Shown here piece by piece: positions 7,792 to 46,528 of a stretch of DNA of 64,000 bases. Position 1 is the stretch's first letter. Each line of letters begins with the position of its first letter. Position numbers and translations under genes: made by a program. The stretch comes from Verrucomicrobiia bacterium (GTDB taxonomy: Bacteria; Verrucomicrobiota; Verrucomicrobiia; Limisphaerales; DSYF01). The notes under the pieces are model-generated. The model saw only the letters and a program-made list of their open reading frames with translations, had not been told where the DNA came from and ran no database searches. Location of the stretch: NCBI GenBank assembly GCA_035765895.1, contig DASTWL010000061.1:1-64000 (forward strand). Reading direction: 5' to 3'.

Positions 7792-10700
7792 ATGATAACA
7801 AAAGCCTTGCTGGTCTTGCTCCTGTCGCTCGGCGTCGGGCTTTCGCGGGCGGCCGATCTCGCCAAACCCTTTGCCCATCCGCCCGCCTCCGCCCGGCCGT
7901 GGGTGTATTGGTTTTGGAACAATGGCAACATTACCAAGGCCGGCATCACCGCCGACCTGGAGGCCATGCAGCGCGTGGGCATCGGCGGGGTCATCATCAT
8001 GGACGTGGTGGAACGCTTTGCGCCGCCGCCCGGCCCGGCGGATTACCTGAACGCCGAGTGGCAGGAGTTGTTCTGCTTTGCCGTTGCCGAGGCGCACCGG
8101 CTGGGCCTGGAAATCAACCTTACCAACGGGCCGGGCTGGTGCGGCAGCAGCGGACCGTGGATCACGCCTGAGCTGTCCATGCAGATGCTCGTCGTTACGA
8201 ATGTCGCGGTGACGGGGCCATTGCGATTTGCCACCGTCCTGCCGCGTCCAGCCATGGGCAGCGTCCGGCCGCACGATGGTTTCAACAGCACGGTGAAATA
8301 TGATGATTATTATCGCGACATTGCCGTGCTGGCGTATCCCGCGACCACGAATGCGTTCCTGCCTCCGGAAGCGGTTTTGAACCTGACCACGAACCTGGAC
8401 CGCGAGGGCAACTTGAACTGGGAGGTGCCGGCCGGGGCATGGGTCATCGCGCGGATCGGGCACACCACGACGGGCTCCTCCACCCGCCCACCGGTCAAGG
8501 GTGGCAATGGCCTCGAATGCGACAAACTAAGCCGCGCGGCGATGGATGTCCATTTCACGAACCTGCTGGGAAAGCTCATCACGGAAATCGGCCCGCTGGC
8601 CGGGCGGACGTTGGTGGCGACACACATTGACAGTTGGGAGGTGGGCGCGCAGAACTGGACGGCCCAATTGCGGGAGGAGTTTTTGAAGCGGCGCGGCTAT
8701 GATCCGCTTCCCTATTTGCCGGATGTGATTCACGCCAATGATCACGTCGTGATCGGCGCCCCGGCCATCGCCCGGCGTTTTCGCTGGGACTACGACCAGA
8801 CGATTGCGGAATTGCTCGCGGAAAATTATGTCGGCCGGCTGGCCGAACTGGCGCACCAGCATGGCCTGCGGCTCAGCATCGAGGGCTACGATTTGCCCTT
8901 TGGTGACGAAGCAACCTACACGGCCGCGGCCGATGAACCGATGAGCGAGTTCTGGGCGACCGGCGGAAATCAGAACGAGGCCAAGGCGCGGCAGATGGCG
9001 TCGGTCGCGCACATCATGGGAGAAAAGATCGTCGGCGCGGAGGCGTTTACCTCGGGCGACAACGAGCAGTGGAAGTTTCATCCGGCGACCGTCAAGGCCC
9101 TTGGCGATTACGAGTTTTCCCAGGGCATCAACCGGTTTGTCATCCATCGCTACGCGTTTCAGCCGTATCTCGACCGTTACCCTGGTTCCACGATGGGGCC
9201 GTGGGGACTGCACTACGAACGCACCCAGACCTGGTGGGAAATGTCCGGGCCCTGGCACGAATACCTGGCCCGCTGCCAGTTCATGTTGCGGCAGGGATGG
9301 TTCGTCGCTGATCTGTGCTACCTGCGTCCGCAGTTGCCCAACCAGACTTATTTCACTCCCAATCCGGCCGTTCCGGACGGTTACAAATACGATGAATGCA
9401 GCGCCGCGGCGTTGTTGTCCAGGATGCGCGTGAAGGCCGGACGGCTGGTGTTGCCGGACGGCATGAGCTATCGCCTGCTGGTGCTGCCCGCCGGAGTGCG
9501 GTCGATGACGCCGGAGCTCGTCAAAAAAATCAAACAACTGGTCGCCGACGGAGCCACTGTGTTCGGTCCGCGTCCGCTCGCTTCGCCCAGCCTTGCCGAT
9601 TATCCCAAGTGCGATGACGAAGTGACGCAACTGGCGGCGCAGGTCTGGGGTGATTGTGACGGCGAGACCGTGACGGAACATGCCTTTGGCAAAGGCCGGG
9701 TCATTTGGGGGCAGCCGTTGAAAACCGTCCTGGAAAAATTGCCGACGCCGGCGGATTTCACGGCGAGCACGAAGCTGAACTGGATTCATCGCGAGGTGGG
9801 CGGGCAGCAGGTTTACTTTGTGGCCAATGAACGGGCCATTCCGGTGGAAGCGCGTTGCACGTTCCGGGTAAAGAATCTGCGGCCCGAGTTGTGGGATCCG
9901 AAAACCGGAACGATTTCGCCCTTGCCCCTGTTTGCGGAAACGAATGGGACGATTGCCGCAACCTTGCGCTTGGGCGGCAGTGGTTCGACGTTTGTGGTCT
10001 TTCGCCAGCGCAGCCGGCCGGCCGATTCCGTGATCGATTTCACCCGCGCCGGGCAGCCTGTGGTGCCGTTGACCCGGGCGTCGGTCATTCGGATTCAGCG
10101 CGCCATTTACGGGGTGCCGGGCGACGCGTCACGCACGCGGGATGTGGCGGCCAAATTGCAGGCGCTGGTGGACGGCGGGCAAACGGATTTCCGGGTCACC
10201 CAAATGGCCGCGGGCGACGATCCGGCTTACGGCATTGTCAAAACCCTCGAGGCGGATTACACCGTTGACGGCGGCGCGCATCACCTCAGCGCGAAAGATC
10301 CCGACGCAATCAGCCTCGCAGCGGTCCAGGCCGTGCCCGAACGGCCGGCGGAACTCGAATCCGATGCCAATGGCACCTTGCGTTTGGCAGCGCGCGAGCC
10401 CGGTCAATATGAATGGAAGACTGCGGCCGGAACGGTGCGACGGGTGGACATTGCTGCGGTGCCTGCGCCGCAGGAAATCACCGGACCGTGGGAGGTTCAT
10501 TTTCCGCCCAAGTGGGGAGCGCCGTCACAAATCACCCTGGAGCGCCTGAGTTCATTGAGCGATTCGCCGATCGCCGGTGTTAAGTATTTTTCCGGCACGG
10601 CGACCTACGTGACGACGTTTGACTGGAATCCGGTTGCCGGTCCGGGCCAATCGAAGCCTGAATACTGGCTGGATCTGGGCGGGGTGCAGGTGATGGCGGC

Positions 10701-32258: not shown

Positions 32259-33368
32259 ATGAGTCGCCAGGTGTGCATTCTGCTGCCGCGGACGGGGCTG
32301 TATCCCGGTTTGGGAAAAATGCTCGCGGACGCCTTTGGAGAACTGGGCTGGCAGCCCACCGTGCGCCACCGCGCCGACGCGGAGGTGCTGCGCCACGATC
32401 TCCTGCTGCTGGCGGGTTTTTGCCGCTACATTGAGGGCTTGCCCGCGGTGCTCGCGCAGCGGCGGGGCCGGTCGCCCGTCACGCTGCTCTGGCAGTTGGA
32501 ACCGCTGCCGCCGGAGCAGTTGAGCCTGCTCGGCGAACAGGTCGGCCGGCGCCTTGCCGCGCTGGACTGGGGCCGGTTGCCGCGCCCGGCACGGAAGCTC
32601 CTCGGCAACCTCATTCCCTTCCGCACGCAGTTGCTGCGGACCCTGCGCCGGTGGCAGGCCCGGGAATACACGCGCGCTGTCCGGCAGGCGCCGGACCAGG
32701 AGGGCTGGATCCAATACGACGTGGAAAATTTTTTCAACGCGGCGGGCGATTGGGAATGGATCCGGCGGGCGCAGGCGCAGGGCTGGCTGGACCATTGTTT
32801 TGCCACCGTGCAGCCACGGGTGCGTTTTCTCCGGAGCCGCGGAGTGCCGGCCGGGCTGGCACCGTTTGGCTATCATCCGGATTGGGGTCGCGACCAGCAG
32901 TTGCCCCGGGACATTGACGTGTTGTTTCTGGGCGCGCTGGGGCGAGGGCCGCGCCACGAGAAGCTGCGTCATTTGCGGGATGCGCTGGCGGCGCGGGGCC
33001 GCACCCTGACGTTTGTGTCCGGGGTCCAGGGCGCCGTCCGGGAAGCGTGGTTGAACCGCGCGCGGATCGTGCTGTGCCTGCTGCGGACGCCGCACGACCT
33101 GCCGGCGATGCGCGTGATGCTCGGCCTTGCGTGCGGCGCGCTGGTCGTGTGCGAACCGTGCGCGGACACGGGGGCGTTCGTGGCGGGGGAGCACTTCGTG
33201 ATGACGTCCTTGGAGGAAATGCCCGCCGTGATAGACCGTTATCTGACGCACGAAGCGGAGCGGCGGGCCGTTGCCGCGGCGGGTCACCGTTTCGTGACCA
33301 CGGAATTGACCCTGCCGCAAGTTCTCCGCAGGATGCTGGCCGTGGCGAATCTCAGAAGTTCCCCATGA
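32259..33368 (+). CDS. CgeB-like glycosyltransferase (GT-B fold)
   Basis: A 369-residue cytoplasmic protein with the C-terminal block of CgeB/YkvP-type glycosyltransferases: IDVLFLGALGRGPR, LNRARIVLCLLRTPHDLPAMR, LACGALVVCEPCADTGAFVAGEHFV. The N-terminal half is a poorly conserved Rossmann-like domain. It probably adds a sugar to an exported polysaccharide or glycoprotein glycan. Its stop overlaps the next ATG (CCATGA), so it leads an operon of aminotransferase stub, acetyltransferase, BKACE, sugar kinase and slyX. Acceptor and donor are unknown. Confidence 0.82.
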   Translation: MSRQVCILLPRTGLYPGLGKMLADAFGELGWQPTVRHRADAEVLRHDLLLLAGFCRYIEGLPAVLAQRRGRSPVTLLWQLEPLPPEQLSLLGEQVGRRLAALDWGRLPRPARKLLGNLIPFRTQLLRTLRRWQAREYTRAVRQAPDQEGWIQYDVENFFNAAGDWEWIRRAQAQGWLDHCFATVQPRVRFLRSRGVPAGLAPFGYHPDWGRDQQLPRDIDVLFLGALGRGPRHEKLRHLRDALAARGRTLTFVSGVQGAVREAWLNRARIVLCLLRTPHDLPAMRVMLGLACGALVVCEPCADTGAFVAGEHFVMTSLEEMPAVIDRYLTHEAERRAVAAAGHRFVTTELTLPQVLRRMLAVANLRSSP

Positions 33369-33532
33369 TACCAACATTTCGTCCCAGTCTGGGCGCCGAA
33401 GAACAGCGCGCCGTCGAGTCCGTGTTTGCCAGCCGCTGGCTGGGCATGGGACCGGTGACGGAGCGATTGGCAGCCGTCGTGTTCCGAACCTCATCGGACA
33501 ACGTCGCCGTTTCCACGCTCACCCCCGCATGA
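33365..33532 (+). pseudogene. N-terminal stub of a DegT/DnrJ/EryC1/StrS aminotransferase
   Basis: A 55-codon frame starting in the stop of the glycosyltransferase gene. Its first 36 residues (MIPTFRPSLGAEEQRAVE, SRWLGMGPVTERL) are the canonical beginning of sugar-nucleotide PLP aminotransferases of about 370 residues, with the S/N..W...G.....E motif. It then runs into 18 unrelated residues and stops at 33532, overlapping the next start (ATGATG). The PLP lysine domain is absent, so an internal deletion of about 950 bases is inferred. It would have been the PglE-like partner of the downstream PglD-like acetyltransferase. Confidence 0.8.
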
Positions 33533-34179
33533 TGAATACCGGAAAACCCCTGCTCATTCTTGGCACCGGCCCGTTTGCCGTGGAAATTGCCGACCTCGCC
33601 TCCGAAATCCCCGGCGTGACGGTTGCCGGTTTCGTGGAAAACCTGGATCGTGCCCGTTGCGCGCAGCCGCTGGATGGCCGGCCGGTGTATTGGATCGATG
33701 AACTTGGTCCGCGCGTGGTCACGCACCAGTTTGTGTGCGGGCTGGGCACCACGCACCGCGGCCGGTTTACCGCGCAGGTGGCCGCGCTCGGCGGCGAATT
33801 CGCCACCCTGGTGCATCCCAGCGCCCGGGTCTCCACGCGCAGCACGCTGGGCCCGGGAACGATTCTCAACGTCGGCGTCATCATTGCGTCGCACACCCGG
33901 TTGGGCGCGCACGTTTCGGTGAACCGCGGCGCCACCATCGGCCACCACACGCAGATTGATGATTTTGTCACCGTCGGCCCGGGTGTGAATCTGGCGGGCA
34001 GTTGTCACGTCGGCCGGGCGGTGTATGTGGGCATCGGCGCCACCATCATCGACCACAAGGTCATCGGCGCGCAGTCCGTCGTGGGGGCCGGCGCGGTGGT
34101 GACCGAGGACGTGCCGGAACGCGTGCTCGTGGTGGGCGTGCCGGCCAAAATTGTGAAGCGAGACATCGCAGGCAAATAA
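33529..34179 (+). CDS. PglD/NeuD-family sugar O- or N-acetyltransferase
   Basis: A 216-residue left-handed beta-helix enzyme. The N-terminal Rossmann-like domain opens LLILGTGPFAVEIADLA. Hexapeptide repeats run from about residue 105 to 205 (LGPGTILNVGVIIASHTRLG, HTQIDDFVTVGPG, VGIGATIIDHKVIG, VVGAGAVVTEDVP), ending VVGVPAKIVKR. Relatives acetylate UDP-4-amino-sugars with acetyl-CoA in bacillosamine or related pathways. The expected aminotransferase partner immediately upstream is only a stub, so the amino-sugar substrate must come from another locus or this pathway is dead. The start ATG overlaps the stub's stop. Confidence 0.9.
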   Translation: MMNTGKPLLILGTGPFAVEIADLASEIPGVTVAGFVENLDRARCAQPLDGRPVYWIDELGPRVVTHQFVCGLGTTHRGRFTAQVAALGGEFATLVHPSARVSTRSTLGPGTILNVGVIIASHTRLGAHVSVNRGATIGHHTQIDDFVTVGPGVNLAGSCHVGRAVYVGIGATIIDHKVIGAQSVVGAGAVVTEDVPERVLVVGVPAKIVKRDIAGK

Positions 34180-34187
34180 TCCGCGCC

Positions 34188-35081
34188 ATGAAACTGGACA
34201 AGCTCATCATCAACGCCGCGCTCACCGGCATGGTGCCGCAGAAGCGGGACAACCCGCACACGCCCATTGCCCCCGCGGAAATCATCGCCGATGCCCGGCG
34301 CTGTCACGCCGCGGGCGCGAGCATCATTCACGTCCACGCCCGCGACGCCTCGGGCCGGCCCGACTGGCACAAGGAGGCGTATGCCGAAATCATCACCGGC
34401 ATTCGTGCCGCGTGCCCGGGCCTCCTGATTTCCGCCACCACGAGCGGGCGCACGGACAATTCGTTTGCCTGCCGGTCGGACGTGCTCGACCTGACGGGCG
34501 ACGCGAAGCCGGACTTTGCCTCGCTGACCCTCGGCTCGCTGAACTTTCCGAACCAGGCATCGGTCAATGAGCCCAGGATGATTCAGGCCCTGGCTGAAAA
34601 AATGCAGCAGCGCGGCATTATTCCCGAACTCGAGCTGTTCGAGCTGGGCATGGCCGACTACGCGCGCCGGCTGATTCAACTTGGGCGGTTGCAGCCGCCG
34701 TTCTACGCCAACGTGCTGCTTGGCTCCCTGGGCACGCTGGCGGCCACGCCGGACAATCTTGTCACGCTCGTGCGCGCGCTGCCGACCGGCACCACGTGGT
34801 CCGCCGCGGGCATCGGCCGCTTCCAATTTTACGTCAACAGCATGGCCATCACCATGGGCGGTCACGTGCGGGTCGGGCTGGAGGACAACCTCTGGTTTGA
34901 CGCCGCCCGCACGGAGCTGGCGACGAATGTGAAGTTGATCGAGCGCCTGGTGAAGCTGGCCCAATGCGCGGGGCGCGACATCGCCTCGCCGGCGGAGGCC
35001 CGCGCGTTGATTGGCCTGCCGGCCCCGGCGGAAGCCACCACCCTTCGCTTCGACGTGACAACTCCGCCCGTCCGCTGCTAA
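34188..35081 (+). CDS. BKACE-family beta-keto acid cleavage enzyme (DUF849)
   Basis: A 297-residue TIM-barrel protein with the metal-binding H48-V-H50-A-R-D block (IIHVHARD) and DNPHTPIAPAEI, as in 3-keto-5-aminohexanoate cleavage enzymes, which condense a beta-keto acid with acetyl-CoA to give acetoacetate and a CoA ester. The substrate varies widely within the family and is not predictable here. The gene lies 8 bases after the acetyltransferase stop and 9 before the kinase, an unusual place for this enzyme; lysine-fermentation partners are absent. ATG at 34188 is chosen because homology begins at the first residues (KLDKLIINAALTG). Confidence 0.88.
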   Translation: MKLDKLIINAALTGMVPQKRDNPHTPIAPAEIIADARRCHAAGASIIHVHARDASGRPDWHKEAYAEIITGIRAACPGLLISATTSGRTDNSFACRSDVLDLTGDAKPDFASLTLGSLNFPNQASVNEPRMIQALAEKMQQRGIIPELELFELGMADYARRLIQLGRLQPPFYANVLLGSLGTLAATPDNLVTLVRALPTGTTWSAAGIGRFQFYVNSMAITMGGHVRVGLEDNLWFDAARTELATNVKLIERLVKLAQCAGRDIASPAEARALIGLPAPAEATTLRFDVTTPPVRC

Positions 35082-37475: not shown

Positions 37476-38854
37476 CGCGCGCCTTTCGAATTGTTGGAGC
37501 AAAGTTTCTGCCCCGTCTGGCTACCATTGCGGGAATGGGCGTGCTCGCAACTCGCGCCGTCCACCCATGTCTGGCTGACGCCGTTGCCCCCCGCTCGTGG
37601 GAGGTTCAACCCCGGTCACGCCCGTTTCTCGCCATGCCGGCCACGGCCGCCTCAACCTTGCCGGCACTGTTGTCTCAAACTGGAGCGTTCAAGGATGTCC
37701 GGCATCTTGTCCCGGCCGATGGATTACTCCCGTATGAGCTCATCGTCCCATTCTGGTCGGACGGTGCGGAGAAAGCGCGCTGGGTTTCCGTGCCTGCCGG
37801 CGCGACGATAAAATTTTCGCCGACGGGCGAATGGAGCTTTCCGAAAGGAACGGTCTTTGTAAAGACGTTCACTTTCATTACCAACGAACTGCAGCCCGAG
37901 TCGATTCGCCGGCTGGAGACGCGGTTGCTGGTGTGCGATGCGGATGGCGGCGTTTACGGGGCCGTTTACAAATGGCGCCCCGACAACAGTGACGCTGAGT
38001 TGCTGGAAACGAATTTGATGGAAACGATCACCATTATAACCGCGACCGGCGTGCGAACCCAGTCGTGGTATTACCCCAGCCGCAAGGATTGCCTGACCTG
38101 CCACACGGACAACGCCGGGCATGTCCTGGGGGTAAAAACCCGGCAGTTGAACCGGGAGTATGCCTACCCTGCCGGGGTCACTGAAAATGAACTGCTGAGG
38201 TGGAGCCGGCTTGGCCTGTTCGATACCAACCTGCACAAAGCCGACGTAAAAGCGTTGCCGACGCTGGCCCGTCCCGATGACCTGGCCCGCAGCCTGGAAG
38301 ATCGCGCGCGTTCCTACCTCGATGCGAATTGCGCCAATTGCCATCGGCCGAAGGGCACCGTTGCCTATTTCGACGCGCGCTACGACACGCCATTGGCAAA
38401 GCAGGGCCTGATTGACGGTCCGGTGCTGATTGACGAACGCATCGACAGCGCGCGGGTCATGGCGCCGAACGACATCTGGCGTTCCATTCTTTACCTGCGG
38501 GCGAACACGACCGAAGCCTTCAAGATGCCGCCGCTGGCCCGCAACGCGATCGATGAAAAGGGCATGGCCTTGCTGCGACAATGGATCGAAAGCCTTCCGG
38601 GGCCGCCGGTGCTGCCGCCGCCGGAAATCTCGCCGGCCGGCGGCAGTCTGACGAACGCCGTGGAGGTCACATTGAGCAGCGTGCCGGGTGCGACCATCCG
38701 TTACACAATCGACGGCACGGTGCCGACGAAGTCGGATTTGCTCTATGACAAACCCATTCGCCTGACCGGGCCAACCATTCTGCGCGCCCGGGCGTTCAAG
38801 ACGGGCTTCACCAAGAGCATTACCACCCAGCAGTTCTTTCTCACCGGCCAGTAG
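37472..38854 (+). CDS. Exported diheme c-type cytochrome (SO2930/HNE_0200-like) with chitobiase-type C-terminal domain
   Basis: A 460-residue protein starting at GTG 37472, which overlaps the upstream stop as GTGA. Core motifs are PFWSDGAEKARWVSVP, FPKGTVFVKTF and RRLETRLLV. Two haem sites are present: CLTCH at C207 and CANCH at C287. A chitobiase C-terminal-type module (TIRYTIDGTVPT, DKPIRLTGPTIL) closes the protein. It is closely related to residues 1637-2057 of the giant protein at 40142. Proteins of this family are periplasmic or surface electron carriers of unknown partner. The N-terminus is atypical as a signal peptide, with a hydrophobic stretch at about 12-27. Confidence 0.85.
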   Translation: MTRAFRIVGAKFLPRLATIAGMGVLATRAVHPCLADAVAPRSWEVQPRSRPFLAMPATAASTLPALLSQTGAFKDVRHLVPADGLLPYELIVPFWSDGAEKARWVSVPAGATIKFSPTGEWSFPKGTVFVKTFTFITNELQPESIRRLETRLLVCDADGGVYGAVYKWRPDNSDAELLETNLMETITIITATGVRTQSWYYPSRKDCLTCHTDNAGHVLGVKTRQLNREYAYPAGVTENELLRWSRLGLFDTNLHKADVKALPTLARPDDLARSLEDRARSYLDANCANCHRPKGTVAYFDARYDTPLAKQGLIDGPVLIDERIDSARVMAPNDIWRSILYLRANTTEAFKMPPLARNAIDEKGMALLRQWIESLPGPPVLPPPEISPAGGSLTNAVEVTLSSVPGATIRYTIDGTVPTKSDLLYDKPIRLTGPTILRARAFKTGFTKSITTQQFFLTGQ

Positions 38855-40141: not shown

Positions 40142-43100
40142 ATGAAAAACCATTTGGGCTTCATCATCAGGGGGTTCGCGGTCATCAGCGTCGTTCTCGC
40201 AACCCTGTCCCAGCTTTGCCCTGAAGCCAAAGCCCAGACGCTGCGGTTGCGTTTTGCCTTCGAAGACAGCGGCTCGACCACGACCGATTCCGCGGCGGGA
40301 GTTACGTTGAAGCTGGTCAACGGCAGCACGGCGACGGATTTGCACGGGACTGCCGGATCCGGCGTGGCCGGGATTGGCAAAGCCTTGGACTTTTTCTCCG
40401 GGACTTACAACAACGCAGCGTCGCCGATCGCTTTTGCGACCAACAACGGAGCACTGAACTTTGGGCCGATTTCCAATTTTACCCTGACCCAGTGGATCAA
40501 ACCTGGCGTGGTTTCCCAGTATCCGCGCTTCTTTGAAATTGGACCCAATACGTTCACGGTCGAGACGGCGGCGAATTCGTTTGCCTACCTGCTGAACAAT
40601 GGACCCGGCTTTCAAGTCTTCCTGAACGGGGTTCAGCAGTTGACCACGGGAACGGTTCCCGGCTTGTCCGCGGGAAGTTGGAGCTTTATTGCGATTACTT
40701 ACGATGGCAGCACGCTGAATCTGTATGCTGGTTCGGAGACCAGTCCCGTGGCGCTTGTCACGAGCGCATCGGTTTCAGGGCAGACCATCAATCTGGGCAG
40801 CTCCGGCACCGTTTTTTTGGGCAATCGGTTGAGTGACCAGCTTCGGGCATTCCAAGGATTGCTGGATGACACACGGTTTTATACGGATGCGGCGGATGTG
40901 AACTTTCTGGAAAGCGTGCGGCTGTCTGCTTTGAGCGACCCGTATGCGGGGCCGACGACAATTTCACCATCGGCAACAGCCATTCTTGGCAGCAATGTAA
41001 CCATCAGTGCCATCGCCGATGGCACTCCGCCGATTACTTTTCGGTGGTTCTTCACCAACACGAACGGCGTCACCAGCCTGGTTTCCGGCGCCACCACGAG
41101 CACGTTTACGCTCACCAATGTGCAATATGCCAATGCCGGAAATTATTTTTTGGTGGTCTCCAACAACCCGGGCGGCACCCCAAAGGTCTTCACCAACACA
41201 CCTGCTGCCTTGACGGTGACGGCGGAGGTGCCGCCGGTCGTGCTGGTGGATTTCGGCATCAATGCGCCGACGCCGGGGATTAACGACGCTTTTCAGTTCA
41301 GCACGGCCGGCCAGGCAAACCAGCCGGATGGACTTAATTACTATACCGACAACCAGGTCAGTTACGGCTCGGGCGAACCCGGACAGACATTTTTTACGCC
41401 CGACGGCTCGGCCGGTTTCCTTTTGACCTCGCTGGCCTTTAAAACCGGGGGCGGCACCAGTTCGGGGACCGGCACCCCGCAGGGGTATTTGCTGCACATT
41501 TATTCGGTGAGCAATGGCGCCGCCACCGTGCTCGCCACTTATAGTGCGACGAACTTCACTTTTTCGGATGGTGACTGGTTGCAGTGGACCAACCTCGACT
41601 TGTCGCTCATGCCCAATTCGACTTATGGCTATTCCTTCGGAAAAGTCTCCGCGGCAGTTGGGGGTTGGGATCAGCTGGGCAATGCCAGTGGCAATCCTTA
41701 TCCGAATGGTGAACTGGGCATTTTCCCGGTGGCTGGCGGCAACATCACCTTTGCCAGCAGCCATGACTACGATGGCGTTTTTGATGTGGGATTGACTTCG
41801 CTCGGACCTCCGTCGCCAGCGACGGTCGCAAACAAGCCCGCTACGACCATCCAAGGGACGGCCGCAACCTTGAACGGAACCATTGTTGCGAGCGGAGGCA
41901 GCCTTCCGTATGTCACGATCTACTATGGCGCGACCGACGGCGGGACGAATGCCGCCGCCTGGTCCAACGATGTCGCTCTGGGCGCACAGTTGGGGGACTT
42001 TTCGACGATGGTGACCGGCCTGACGACCAACACGACGTATTACTACACCGCCCAGGCTTCCAACACGGCCGGCATTTCGTGGGCCGCGCCGGCCTCCAGC
42101 TTTACCACGGCGGCGACGGTGAACCCACCCACCGTAACCAACCTGCCAGCAATGCTCGTCGGCGCGACCACAGTCACCTTGAACGGTCAGGTGCTGGATA
42201 CGGGCAATGAGTGGCCGATCATCACGATTTATTACGGGACCACCGATGGCGGCGCCAATCCGGCCGCTTGGTCCAATCACATTTCCCTGCCGGCGCAGGG
42301 AGGAGTTTTCAATTTGCAGGTGGCCGGGCTGTCAGAAGGCGCGACTTATTACTTTGCCGCTTACGCGTCCAACTCGGCTGGATCCTCATGGGGTGGTCCA
42401 TCGCAGTCGTTCACCACGCTGGCAGTCAAACACATCCCGGTGCTGACGTATCATTACGACAACACCCGCCAGGGATTGAACGCCAACGAAACCCTGCTGA
42501 CTCCGGCCAATGTGAACACCGCCAGCTTCGGAAAACTGTTCACCTATCCGGTGGATGGCTATGTGTATGCCCAGCCGCTGATCATGACCAATCTGACCAT
42601 TCCCGGCAAAGGCACGCACAACGTGCTGTTCGTCCTCACCATGCACGACACGGTTTATGCCTTTGACGCCGACAGCAATGGCGGGGCCGATGGGGGCTTA
42701 TTGTGGAAAACCAACGTCGGCATTTCGGCCGTCTCGCCTTCCACCGAATACGGTCTGCGTTACCACGCTCAAGGCAATACGGACGTGGTGCCGGAGGAGG
42801 GAATGGTGGGCACGCCGGTCATTGACGCGGCAACGGGCACGCTTTACCTGGATGCCTTCACGCGGGAAGTCGTGCCGGGCGTTTCCACCAACTACTATCA
42901 TCGTATTCACGCACTGGATGTGACGACCGGCAACGAGCGGCCCTACGGCCCGGTGGTCGTCGCCGGTTCCGTGCCGGGCACCGGCGTGAATGGCAGTGGC
43001 GGCGTATCCGGAGCCGGCACCGGCGCCACGATTACGGACGGCGGCCCCACCGTAACGTTTTCGGCCATTCAACATTGCGCCCGCCCGGCGCTGACGCTGG

Positions 43101-46100
43101 CCGGTGGCGTTTTGTATGTGGCTTACGGCAGCCACGATGACACCGATCCATATCACGGGTGGGTTTTTGGCTACAACCCCGCCAATCTTGCTTTGGTGAG
43201 CATCTACTGCACCTCGCCCAACGCAACACTGGCGGCGTTTGGTTCCCATGCAGGCGAAGGTGCGATTTGGATGGCAGGCAACGGCCTTTGCGCGGATGCC
43301 AGCAACAATCTCTATTTCATGACTGGCAACGGGGCGTTCAGCCAGAACACCAACGGTGGCGATTACGGCGACAGTTTCGTCAAGCTTTCCACAACCGCGA
43401 ACCAGCTCAGCGCAACCGATTATTTCACGCCCTACAACCAGGCCTCTTTGCAGAGCAGCGACGCGGATTTGGGGTCGGGTGGCGCCATGCTGCTGCCGGA
43501 CGCAGCCGGCAGTGCGGCCCATCCGCACTTGATCGTGGGGGCCGGCAAGCAGGGAAAGATTTATCTCGTGGATCGCGACAACATGGGACATTACCAGGCG
43601 GGCAGCGACAGTCAGATTGTGCAGTCCATCGGCGGCGCCGTGGGCGGGTGCTGGTGTTCGCCCGCCTACTTCAACAACTGGATTTATTATCAAGGCAACG
43701 GTGATGTGATGAAGGCGTTCTTTATCACCAATGGGAGCATCGCCACCACGCCGGTTTCAAAATCCACCACCAGTTTTGGTTTTCCCGGCCAGACGCCAAC
43801 CATCTCCGCGGACGGCTCGAGCAACGGCATCGCGTGGGTCATTGATGCCAGCGCGTATCTGAGCAGCGGCCCGGCAGTGTTGCATGCCTACAACGCAACC
43901 AACCTTGCCGACGAACTGTATAACTCCAGCCAGAATCCTTCGCGCGACTATCCGGGCGCAGGCGTGAAAATGGTTCCACCTGTTATTGCCGGCGGCAAGG
44001 TGTATGTCGGCGCACAATACGCCGTATCCGTCTTTGGCAACGCCGTTTTTCTGACCGCTCCGACCATCTCCCCCAACGGCGGCCCCTTTACCAATTCGGT
44101 GATGGTGACGCTGTCGGACGCCACGGCGGGCGCGTCCATCTTTTATACGCTGGACGGCACAACCCCCACCACGGATTCGACGCCATACACCGGGCCATTC
44201 GCACTGACGAGCAATGCTTTGGTGCAGGCCATTGCCGCCGCGCCCGGCGCGGTGAACAGCGCCGTCACCAGCGCATCGTTCAACAACACCGCCGCCAGTG
44301 GCACTGGCACCGGCTTGCAGGCCGAATATTTTGCCAATCACACCAGCGCCGCTCCGTTCACCGGTTCGCCAGCGCTCGTGCAGACGAATGCGACCGTCAA
44401 CTTTAACTGGGGCACAATCGGTCCGGCTCCCAGTGTGGGCGCGACCAATTTCACCGTGCGCTGGACCGGCTGCGTGCAACCTCGGTTCTCTGAAAGTTAC
44501 ACCTTCACCACCACGGCGGACGATGGCGTGCGCCTGTATGTAAACGGGCAGTTGTTGATTGATGACTGGACCGACAAGGCCAGCGCCACGACGAGGAGCA
44601 ATTCCATCGCGCTCGCGGCGCAGCAGCTTTACAACATCGAACTGGATTATTACCAGAAGACCAACAACGCCTCGGTGACGCTTTCCTGGAACAGTCCTTC
44701 GACGCCGAACGGTGTTGTTCCGCAGACCCAGTTGTATCCTTATTCGAACCCGGCTCCGGCCGTTGTCCTGACCGCACCAGCCGACGGTTCGGGTTATACC
44801 GCGCCAGCCAGCGTGACCATTTCTGCCGATGCGGACGCGCCATACAACCCGGTCAGCGTCGTCAGCTTTTACGCCAACGGTGCGTATTTGGGCAGCGTCA
44901 GCAATGCGCCCTACACCCTCACCACGACTGGATTGGCGGCCGCCAGTTACGCCTTAACCGCCGTGGCGGTGGACGGCAGCGGCTTGAGCAGCACGTCTGC
45001 CGTGGTGAACGTTTCTGTGGGCGCCGGCAGCGGCCAGCCTTATGGACTCACCACCCGCCTGCCAATGAACGCTTTCCTGAACATGCCGACGACAGCGGCG
45101 GGATCGATGCCGGCGCTGCTGTCACAGGTGGGCATTTTCAGCAACACGCCCGGCATGACGCCGGTGACGGCATTGATTCCTTATACTCCCAATACGCCAC
45201 TCTGGTCGGACGGTGCACTGAAGACGCGTTACTTCGCCGTGCCCAACGACGGCGGAACCATCACACCGGATGAGCAAATTGATTTTGCGCCGACCGGTTC
45301 GTGGTCTTTCCCGGCCGGGACGGTATTTGTGAAAACCTTTGAACTGAATACCGACACCACGAATCCCAATGTCAAACGCCGGCTCGAAACCCGCCTGCTG
45401 GTGCGCGACATCAACGGCCAGGTTTACGGTGTGACCTACAAATGGCGTGCCGACAACAGTGATGCCGACCTGCTCCCCGGCAGCTTGAACGAGGACATCC
45501 TCATTACCAACGCCACCGGCGTGACCACGCAAACGTGGTATTATCCAAGCCGGGCGGACTGTCTCACCTGCCACACGCCGGTGGCCAATTACGTGCTGGG
45601 AGTGAATACCCGTCAGTTGAACGGCGATGAGACGTATCCATCAACCGGGGTGACCGACAATCAGTTGCGCACCTTGAACCGGCTCGGCCTGTTCAACGCC
45701 GCGTTTGATGAGGCGATCATCACGAACTTTGCCAGAATGGCCGCCCTGACCAACCTTTCGGCCTCGCTCGAGACCCGGGTGCGTTCCTATCTCGACGCCA
45801 ACTGCGTGCAATGTCATCAGCCCGGAGGAATCGGGCCGACGTTTGACGCGCGCTTCGACCTGCCGCTGGCCAGTCAAAACATCATCAACGGCGGACTGGA
45901 TTCGGACGGCTTCGCCATGGTGGTGCCCAAAGACATCTGGCGCTCGGAAATCCATCAGCGGATGGACACGACCAACAACACCATCAAGATGCCGCCGCTC
46001 GCGCGCAATTTGATTGATACCAATGCCGTGCAGGTCCTCACCGACTGGATCAACAGTCTGCCGGGGGTTCCCGCGCTGGCCCCGCCCGTCCTCACGCCCA

Positions 46101-46528
46101 ACGGCGGCAACTTCGTGGCTTCGGTGAATGTTGCGGCGCAACAACCGGACACCAATGCGGTGATTTACTACACGCTGGATGGCTCGAAGCCGACGACGAA
46201 CTCGCTGCTTTACACCGGGCCGTTCACCTTGCTGGACAGCGCCACGGTCTCGGCCAGTTCCTTCCGCACCGGTTACGTCAACAGCGTCACGACCAGCGCG
46301 CTGTTCACGGTTGAACCGCTGCATTTTGTTGCGGAAGAACTCACGAACAATATGTTCCGTTTGACCTTCAGTGGCACGGCGGGCGGCAATTACGTGCTTG
46401 AAGCGAGCACGAATCTTGTCACTTGGACGCCCATTGCCACCAACATGCCGGACACGAACGTGTTCGATTTGTTCGATCCAGGAGCGACCAATTATCCTTA
46501 CCGGTTCTATCGGGTGCGGCGCCAGTAA
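40142..46528 (+). CDS. Giant secreted multidomain protein: LamG, Ig, quinoprotein-like propeller, PA14 and diheme cytochrome
   Basis: A 2128-residue exported protein (signal near residue 31, EAKAQT). Approximate order: LamG-type jelly roll 35-255; Ig-like 270-362; a beta-rich domain 366-560; two FN3-like domains 561-760; a PQQ/quinoprotein-like propeller 763-1303 (YDNTRQGLNANETLL, VYAFDADSNG, GKIYLVDRDN); chitobiase C-terminal domain 1307-1382; PA14 1390-1533 (TTADDGVRLYVNGQLLIDDW); Ig-like 1539-1627; diheme cytochrome 1637-1978 with CLTCH at C1807 and CVQCH at C1888; second chitobiase-type domain 1980-2057; and a C-terminal STNLVTW...FYRV element. It is probably anchored at the cell surface. 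A covalent propeller-cytochrome pairing suggests extracellular oxidation or electron transfer; substrate and PQQ use are unproven. Confidence 0.92.
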   Translation: MKNHLGFIIRGFAVISVVLATLSQLCPEAKAQTLRLRFAFEDSGSTTTDSAAGVTLKLVNGSTATDLHGTAGSGVAGIGKALDFFSGTYNNAASPIAFATNNGALNFGPISNFTLTQWIKPGVVSQYPRFFEIGPNTFTVETAANSFAYLLNNGPGFQVFLNGVQQLTTGTVPGLSAGSWSFIAITYDGSTLNLYAGSETSPVALVTSASVSGQTINLGSSGTVFLGNRLSDQLRAFQGLLDDTRFYTDAADVNFLESVRLSALSDPYAGPTTISPSATAILGSNVTISAIADGTPPITFRWFFTNTNGVTSLVSGATTSTFTLTNVQYANAGNYFLVVSNNPGGTPKVFTNTPAALTVTAEVPPVVLVDFGINAPTPGINDAFQFSTAGQANQPDGLNYYTDNQVSYGSGEPGQTFFTPDGSAGFLLTSLAFKTGGGTSSGTGTPQGYLLHIYSVSNGAATVLATYSATNFTFSDGDWLQWTNLDLSLMPNSTYGYSFGKVSAAVGGWDQLGNASGNPYPNGELGIFPVAGGNITFASSHDYDGVFDVGLTSLGPPSPATVANKPATTIQGTAATLNGTIVASGGSLPYVTIYYGATDGGTNAAAWSNDVALGAQLGDFSTMVTGLTTNTTYYYTAQASNTAGISWAAPASSFTTAATVNPPTVTNLPAMLVGATTVTLNGQVLDTGNEWPIITIYYGTTDGGANPAAWSNHISLPAQGGVFNLQVAGLSEGATYYFAAYASNSAGSSWGGPSQSFTTLAVKHIPVLTYHYDNTRQGLNANETLLTPANVNTASFGKLFTYPVDGYVYAQPLIMTNLTIPGKGTHNVLFVLTMHDTVYAFDADSNGGADGGLLWKTNVGISAVSPSTEYGLRYHAQGNTDVVPEEGMVGTPVIDAATGTLYLDAFTREVVPGVSTNYYHRIHALDVTTGNERPYGPVVVAGSVPGTGVNGSGGVSGAGTGATITDGGPTVTFSAIQHCARPALTLAGGVLYVAYGSHDDTDPYHGWVFGYNPANLALVSIYCTSPNATLAAFGSHAGEGAIWMAGNGLCADASNNLYFMTGNGAFSQNTNGGDYGDSFVKLSTTANQLSATDYFTPYNQASLQSSDADLGSGGAMLLPDAAGSAAHPHLIVGAGKQGKIYLVDRDNMGHYQAGSDSQIVQSIGGAVGGCWCSPAYFNNWIYYQGNGDVMKAFFITNGSIATTPVSKSTTSFGFPGQTPTISADGSSNGIAWVIDASAYLSSGPAVLHAYNATNLADELYNSSQNPSRDYPGAGVKMVPPVIAGGKVYVGAQYAVSVFGNAVFLTAPTISPNGGPFTNSVMVTLSDATAGASIFYTLDGTTPTTDSTPYTGPFALTSNALVQAIAAAPGAVNSAVTSASFNNTAASGTGTGLQAEYFANHTSAAPFTGSPALVQTNATVNFNWGTIGPAPSVGATNFTVRWTGCVQPRFSESYTFTTTADDGVRLYVNGQLLIDDWTDKASATTRSNSIALAAQQLYNIELDYYQKTNNASVTLSWNSPSTPNGVVPQTQLYPYSNPAPAVVLTAPADGSGYTAPASVTISADADAPYNPVSVVSFYANGAYLGSVSNAPYTLTTTGLAAASYALTAVAVDGSGLSSTSAVVNVSVGAGSGQPYGLTTRLPMNAFLNMPTTAAGSMPALLSQVGIFSNTPGMTPVTALIPYTPNTPLWSDGALKTRYFAVPNDGGTITPDEQIDFAPTGSWSFPAGTVFVKTFELNTDTTNPNVKRRLETRLLVRDINGQVYGVTYKWRADNSDADLLPGSLNEDILITNATGVTTQTWYYPSRADCLTCHTPVANYVLGVNTRQLNGDETYPSTGVTDNQLRTLNRLGLFNAAFDEAIITNFARMAALTNLSASLETRVRSYLDANCVQCHQPGGIGPTFDARFDLPLASQNIINGGLDSDGFAMVVPKDIWRSEIHQRMDTTNNTIKMPPLARNLIDTNAVQVLTDWINSLPGVPALAPPVLTPNGGNFVASVNVAAQQPDTNAVIYYTLDGSKPTTNSLLYTGPFTLLDSATVSASSFRTGYVNSVTTSALFTVEPLHFVAEELTNNMFRLTFSGTAGGNYVLEASTNLVTWTPIATNMPDTNVFDLFDPGATNYPYRFYRVRRQ

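Follow-up and report, generated by a model that had tools for sequence, protein, structure and literature searches.

A verrucomicrobial DegT-type aminotransferase gene reduced to a 55-codon remnant with a plausible role in translational coupling

Translational coupling by termination and reinitiation is described (PMC6728339, PMC10666635) for neighboring genes whose stop and start codons overlap as ATGA or TGATG, and the same overlap geometry is present at both ends of a 55-codon open reading frame in the DNA analyzed here. Reporter work on two E. coli pairs (PMC10666635) found the terminal 15 nt of the upstream gene to be sufficient for coupling, so that little upstream sequence was required for reinitiation, which is a point of likeness to our short frame. 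The same paper reports that 38-nt gaps in E. coli lowered coupling by 80-90% or abolished it, and that in Haloferax almost none was left with gaps of 22-23 nt. Bicistronic designs in which a short cistron serves as leader (e.g. PMC5995908) provide a second parallel in that termination on the short first cistron feeds the next start, as it would in our frame; those designs are engineered, whereas our frame is a natural remnant. The known coupled pairs differ from the present case in that the upstream cistron here is what is left of a gene and the coupling is a prediction from sequence. Among the titles and abstract openings covered by our literature search, no description was found of a gene remnant that has been retained in nature as a coupler.

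The closest described enzymes are the aminotransferases of the DegT/DnrJ/EryC1/StrS family, of the ArnB/PseC kind, which the frame resembles in its residues 1-35 and in its genomic position but whose enzyme core it lacks. Pairs of an aminotransferase with a NeuD/PglD-type N-acetyltransferase belong to amino-sugar biosynthesis. Our locus resembles such pairs in that its acetyltransferase is a NeuD family member and relatives carry a DegT gene next to NeuD; it differs from them in that the partner is lost and that a gene for a beta-keto acid cleavage enzyme (BKACE) family protein follows in all five loci compared.

The window, that is, the whole 64,000-nt stretch that was analyzed, represents contig C61 of a 4.6-Mb draft genome (G000) of 96 contigs that is 96% complete. 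Four frames follow each other on the forward strand between 32259 and 35081: a glycosyltransferase (GT) as the first operon gene (32259-33368, 369 aa; Pfam Glyco_trans_1_2, PF13524, E 4e-14), the 55-codon frame with its TGA stop (33365-33532), an intact NeuD/PglD-type sugar N-acetyltransferase, hereafter NeuD (33529-34179, 216 aa), and the BKACE family protein (34188-35081, 297 aa; PF05853, E 5.2e-88). NeuD scores 167.1 bits against TIGR03570, above the curated cutoff of 160.8, which places it in that family, and its other matches are VioB, a pilin glycosylation protein and perosamine N-acetyltransferase. His139 of its hexapeptide domain, presumably the catalytic histidine, is invariant in all 17 aligned rows. 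The closest locus found, L039 (CAIQQM010000223.1), is from an uncultured Verrucomicrobia genome and is taken to be contig C223 of genome G477, and the window's GT is 58% identical to its counterpart there and 34-35% identical to those of three more genomes of the order (G518, G583 and G080); NeuD and BKACE, both intact, are 77% and 70% identical to those of L039. That a BKACE family enzyme should be tied to an amino-sugar gene pair was unexpected. Elsewhere in the window, frames at 37535-38854 (439 aa) and 40142-46528 (2128 aa) share by eye a similar segment with CxxCH motifs and a similar C-terminal repeat.

Residues 1-35 of the short frame (33365-33469) are 63% identical to residues 1-35 of P0004, the intact orthologous DegT of L039 (L039:7104-8252, 382 aa), with an E of 7.4e-6 when the whole genome was searched in all six frames; the solved relatives of P0004 are perosamine synthetase and ArnB. 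The NCBIfam ArnB model matches the frame at 22.5 bits, the cutoff of that model for a whole enzyme being 631, and a profile of DegT sequences matches it at 22.0 bits. This profile has 35 rows, L084 (which repeats the gene of L001) and L074 (a fusion with another domain) having been omitted; one DegT search covered the loci of 30 out of many more matching sequences. Pfam gave no family for the frame at E values up to 1. The similarity is no chance match, because the genes flanking the frame are orthologous to those around the full DegT in the relatives. For the remaining part of P0004 the genome holds no counterpart at the level of an orthologue, only full-length paralogues (32-39%) and weak fragments, so that what was found, homology to a gene start in the orthologous place and absence of all that follows, is the picture expected of a DegT pseudogene. 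A functional DegT would show the full-length fold of about 360-390 aa with the region of the PLP-binding lysine; the 55 codons have lost the enzyme core. By homology and position, 33365-33532 is the dead remnant of a DegT-type sugar aminotransferase gene, the usual second gene of the operon, and it cannot act as an aminotransferase. The sequence-only reading had seen the first 36 residues of such an enzyme in it; the DegT start holds and the length needs correction, since 35 residues align securely.

Comparison with related genomes also bears out the proposal that a deletion had removed the enzyme. In three of the five loci a full-length DegT lies at exactly the same place, between orthologous GT and NeuD genes, and the order GT-DegT-NeuD-BKACE is kept (382 aa in L039, 386 and 388 aa in G518 and G583). 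Because these relatives have the full gene in the same position, most of it must have been deleted in the window; by this comparison about 330 of roughly 385 codons (about 1 kb) are gone, the cofactor-binding core included. In G080 the GT is joined straight to NeuD by an ATGA with no DegT between them, and a DegT of another type lies divergently beside this DegT-less operon (the assemblies of G080 and G583 are 56% and 66% complete). A BKACE relative lies downstream of NeuD in all four other loci.

Only five of 320 genomes of the order have a NeuD more than 50% identical to that of the window; seven matched at E 1e-30, two of them with just 34% and 38% identity, where such searches score the best few candidates per genome (at most nine for NeuD in the order and five for the P0005 search described below). 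A sample of 387 genomes of the phylum gave a NeuD match at E 1e-45 only from the window's own genome, and when 146 relatives and 384 genomes of the class were searched with the GT, G080 was the sole good match besides the window, G477, G518 and G583 having come from other searches. Among 974 plasmid records P0004 had no match with more than 60% identity, the best listed one being an ArnB at 42%. The GT-(DegT)-NeuD-BKACE cassette of the five genomes (32259-35081 in the window, L039:5989-9906, and L066, L067 and L059) is set by eye among otherwise differing neighbors. In a NeuD tree with outgroups, built from one short gene with five ingroup sequences and with the outgroup rows L016 and L018 partial, the window groups with L039 (0.928), G080 with G518 and G583 (0.988), and all five together (0.998). 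The in-operon DegTs of L039, G518 and G583 are mutual best matches within the compared set. Given these groupings, the in-operon DegT is most simply read as ancestral and as lost separately, wholly in G080 and by internal deletion in the lineage of the window.

The part of the gene that is left has diverged no more than its surroundings. Against L039, residues 1-35 have a pN of 0.257, a value reached or exceeded by 51 of 156 windows of 35 codons from three intact neighbors, and a pN/pS of 0.40, compared with 0.43 for GT, 0.21 for NeuD and 0.30 for BKACE. Among the intact orthologues the DegT N-terminus tends, if at all, towards lower conservation than the full protein (43% and 35% identity to L039 over the first 40 codons, 49% and 48% overall). 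By these numbers, either the deletion would be young relative to the split between the window and L039 or residues 1-35 would be constrained. That the stub does more than couple and functions as a small protein, one that binds GT or NeuD for example, we consider very improbable: its frame is open and its N-terminal segment is recognizable, but the pN/pS ratio is like that of GT and above those of NeuD and BKACE and so signals no special constraint, the enzyme core is absent, and a second stub was not found among the five operon loci. The lack of extra decay would also be expected if a full DegT existed and about 1 kb had been lost in assembling what is apparently a draft or metagenome-assembled genome. 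The 96 contigs and 96% completeness leave room for such an artefact, and binning could have discarded a lone 1-kb fragment. For an assembly shortcut, however, the lost part would normally have to be flanked by a long exact repeat, and between the two ends just a short possible similarity is hinted at; nor does anything in the genome match the missing part at the level of an orthologue. We regard an artefact as improbable.

For the tail, codons 36-55 (33470-33529), a diverged continuation of the N-terminus, the native C-terminus, or both are candidate origins; of three alignments compared with shuffles, none was convincing. When the tail was scored as the native C-terminal helix, its score was equaled by 1531 of 5000 shuffles and by 1121 of 5000 random 24-mers from all six frames, and the same DNA read in a different frame scored higher (10.5 versus 8.5 bits); when the alignment was fixed at the C-terminus, 1212-1268 of 5000 shuffles were as high. 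A C-terminal 'PVTE' site, read as 'PVTERLA', reaches 15.8 bits, a score equaled by 3 of 3000 shuffles, one of 359 other 28-mers of intact DegTs, none of 35 N-terminal slices (the best, from L039, has 15.4) and none of 195 28-mers from window genes. Residues 30-34 of this reading also fall within the N-terminal homology, from residue 33 onward 1613 of 3000 shuffles are as high, and the SLP motif expected to follow is missing from the tail. Continuation of the N-terminus ('VAVSTLT' against 'VAVNSGT') was matched by 415-855 of 10000 shuffles, depending on settings, and in profile tests by 401 of 3000 with 15 hand-chosen sequences and by 924 of 3000 with all 35. The ArnB model gives the whole stub 22.5 bits and residues 1-35 alone 19.3, and none of eight shuffled tails (18.9-21.6) attains the former value. 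Frameshift-tolerant alignment to either end found nothing (61-67 and 32-38 of 120 shuffles as high), and 33464-33540 has no second copy in the genome, where, apart from itself, it matched one stretch of 24 nt at E 0.17. The C-termini of these enzymes are variable, which makes a native C-terminal origin of the tail hard to test.

The junctions on both sides of the remnant are as the sequence-only reading had described them, with ATGA at 33365-33368 (GT stop and remnant start) and at 33529-33532 (remnant stop and NeuD start). The second is part of an ATGATG (33529-33534) that can also be read as TGATG with the second ATG at 33532, so that NeuD overlaps the remnant by 4 nt or by 1 nt depending on which ATG is used; an overlap of 4 or 1 nt between stop and start on the same strand, the geometry of coupled pairs, is thus present at 33365 and at 33529. 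At the GT end the ATGA is shared with G518, L039 has a gap of 2 nt, and in G583 GT and DegT overlap by 32 nt, given the listed ATG start of its DegT. At the NeuD start the ATGA occurs in four of the five loci, where it follows DegT (G518 and G583), the stub (the window) or GT (G080). Creation of this overlap by the deletion alone is ruled out by its presence in G518, G583 and G080. L039 instead has a gap of 97 nt (8253-8349) that separates DegT from NeuD and carries a strong Shine-Dalgarno site, taking its NeuD start as 8350, which aligns with the others (an in-frame ATG is also present at 8197, inside DegT). Predicted Shine-Dalgarno pairing before NeuD, for which a canonical anti-Shine-Dalgarno sequence was assumed, is nil in the window (+0.7 kcal/mol), G518 (+0.1) and G583 (+0.4), weak in G080 (-3.1) and strong in L039 (-7.4). 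This pattern fits termination-reinitiation at the overlaps and independent initiation at the gap, and because of that gap coupling would be unneeded in L039. The missing site before the window's NeuD is weak evidence, since such sites are uncommon in the window, where 25 of 33 ORFs are weaker than -5 kcal/mol and eight are at -5 or better (the ORFs were picked mechanically and some are spurious). On this evidence coupling of the stub to NeuD is plausible.

The sequence-only reading went further and held that the deletion had left the coupling in place as if selection kept only the coupler. Both ATGA junctions stand; the appeal to selection does not follow from them, and selection on the stub is a possibility. 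A deletion stays in frame one time in three, and an open frame of the remnant's length is unremarkable because 479 of 660 comparable 20-codon stretches (about 73%), taken from non-coding frames of four neighboring genes in this DNA of 62% GC, are open by chance. These figures are equally what neutral decay would give, by which a recent deletion fell in frame by luck, the junctions are leftovers, the stub and any coupling are irrelevant, and NeuD may decay next. The unexceptional divergence of residues 1-35 is expected under such decay if the deletion is young, and L039 manages with gaps in place of overlaps. Against it, NeuD and BKACE are intact and conserved, and G080, which is also without an in-operon DegT, again has ATGA at its NeuD start. 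We hold neutral decay to be rather unlikely, though it is a serious possibility.

A NeuD that is still made and used, as the one in the window presumably is, would need its amino-sugar substrate from elsewhere, and the search for another aminotransferase that had been proposed yielded a lead. The genome has three further full-length DegTs. One of them, P0005 on contig C32 of G000 (L058:6148-8062 together with its adjacent NeuD), lies in what is by eye a polysaccharide cluster and shares 62% identity with the DegT that adjoins the DegT-less operon of G080. In a search of the 320 genomes of the order with P0005, 26 matched at E 1e-75, only G000 and G080 exceeded 50% identity, and the next was at 49%; the best matches in G477, G518 and G583 were at 35-36%. 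Among the five genomes with the operon, the C32-type DegT is thus present in both of those without an intact in-operon DegT and in none of the three that have one, a co-occurrence that comprises two genomes, uses a 50% threshold that was set once the data had been seen, and could have missed fragments at the E 1e-75 limit. Because both genomes without the in-operon enzyme carry the C32 type and the others of the 320 do not at that level of identity, the distribution suggests that this type displaced the in-operon enzyme and acts in trans. Against displacement, the C32 DegT has its own NeuD adjacent to it and could serve another pathway. The C68 DegT, the best match of P0004 in the window's genome (39%), was considered as a specific replacement and rejected; its type recurs at 77-84% in five other fetched loci, which makes it look like a general enzyme.

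Taking the evidence together, we lean slightly towards a joint reading in which the DegT gene is a dead remnant that probably serves as a passive coupling cistron, with transamination probably supplied in trans through the C32 DegT. The deletion would have spared the native start with its GT overlap, and a frame ending on the stop that overlaps the NeuD start. Ribosomes finishing GT would re-start on the stub, run through its 55 codons, terminate at the ATGA and then initiate again at NeuD, which has no Shine-Dalgarno site before its start; because they could do so, the stub probably acts as a short coupling cistron in a passive way. The C32 DegT is the most likely supplier of transamination because its closest relative found in the order adjoins the DegT-less operon of G080. 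A fuller history, in which a second DegT type took over the aminotransferase step of the GT-NeuD-BKACE pathway in the lineages of both the window and G080, with the in-operon DegT lost independently, the gap closed to ATGA in G080 and the dead gene trimmed in the window to a short cistron that was retained since NeuD lacks a ribosome-binding site, is offered very tentatively, as we think it unlikely to be right in every part.

Overall, the locus is a real and fairly ordinary deletion remnant with a plausible residual coupling role and a lead to enzyme replacement. Should the coupling be inoperative, nothing more than such a remnant is left. A working coupling would show a concrete route by which a gene that has died within tightly overlapping neighbors is unable simply to disappear and shrinks to a minimal coupling cistron, which would help to explain very short in-operon frames of the kind that annotation discards. 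The finding points to a specific replacement enzyme in trans, and a single junction offers three natural outcomes for comparison, namely the stub of the window, the gap with its Shine-Dalgarno site in L039 and the direct GT-NeuD joint in G080.
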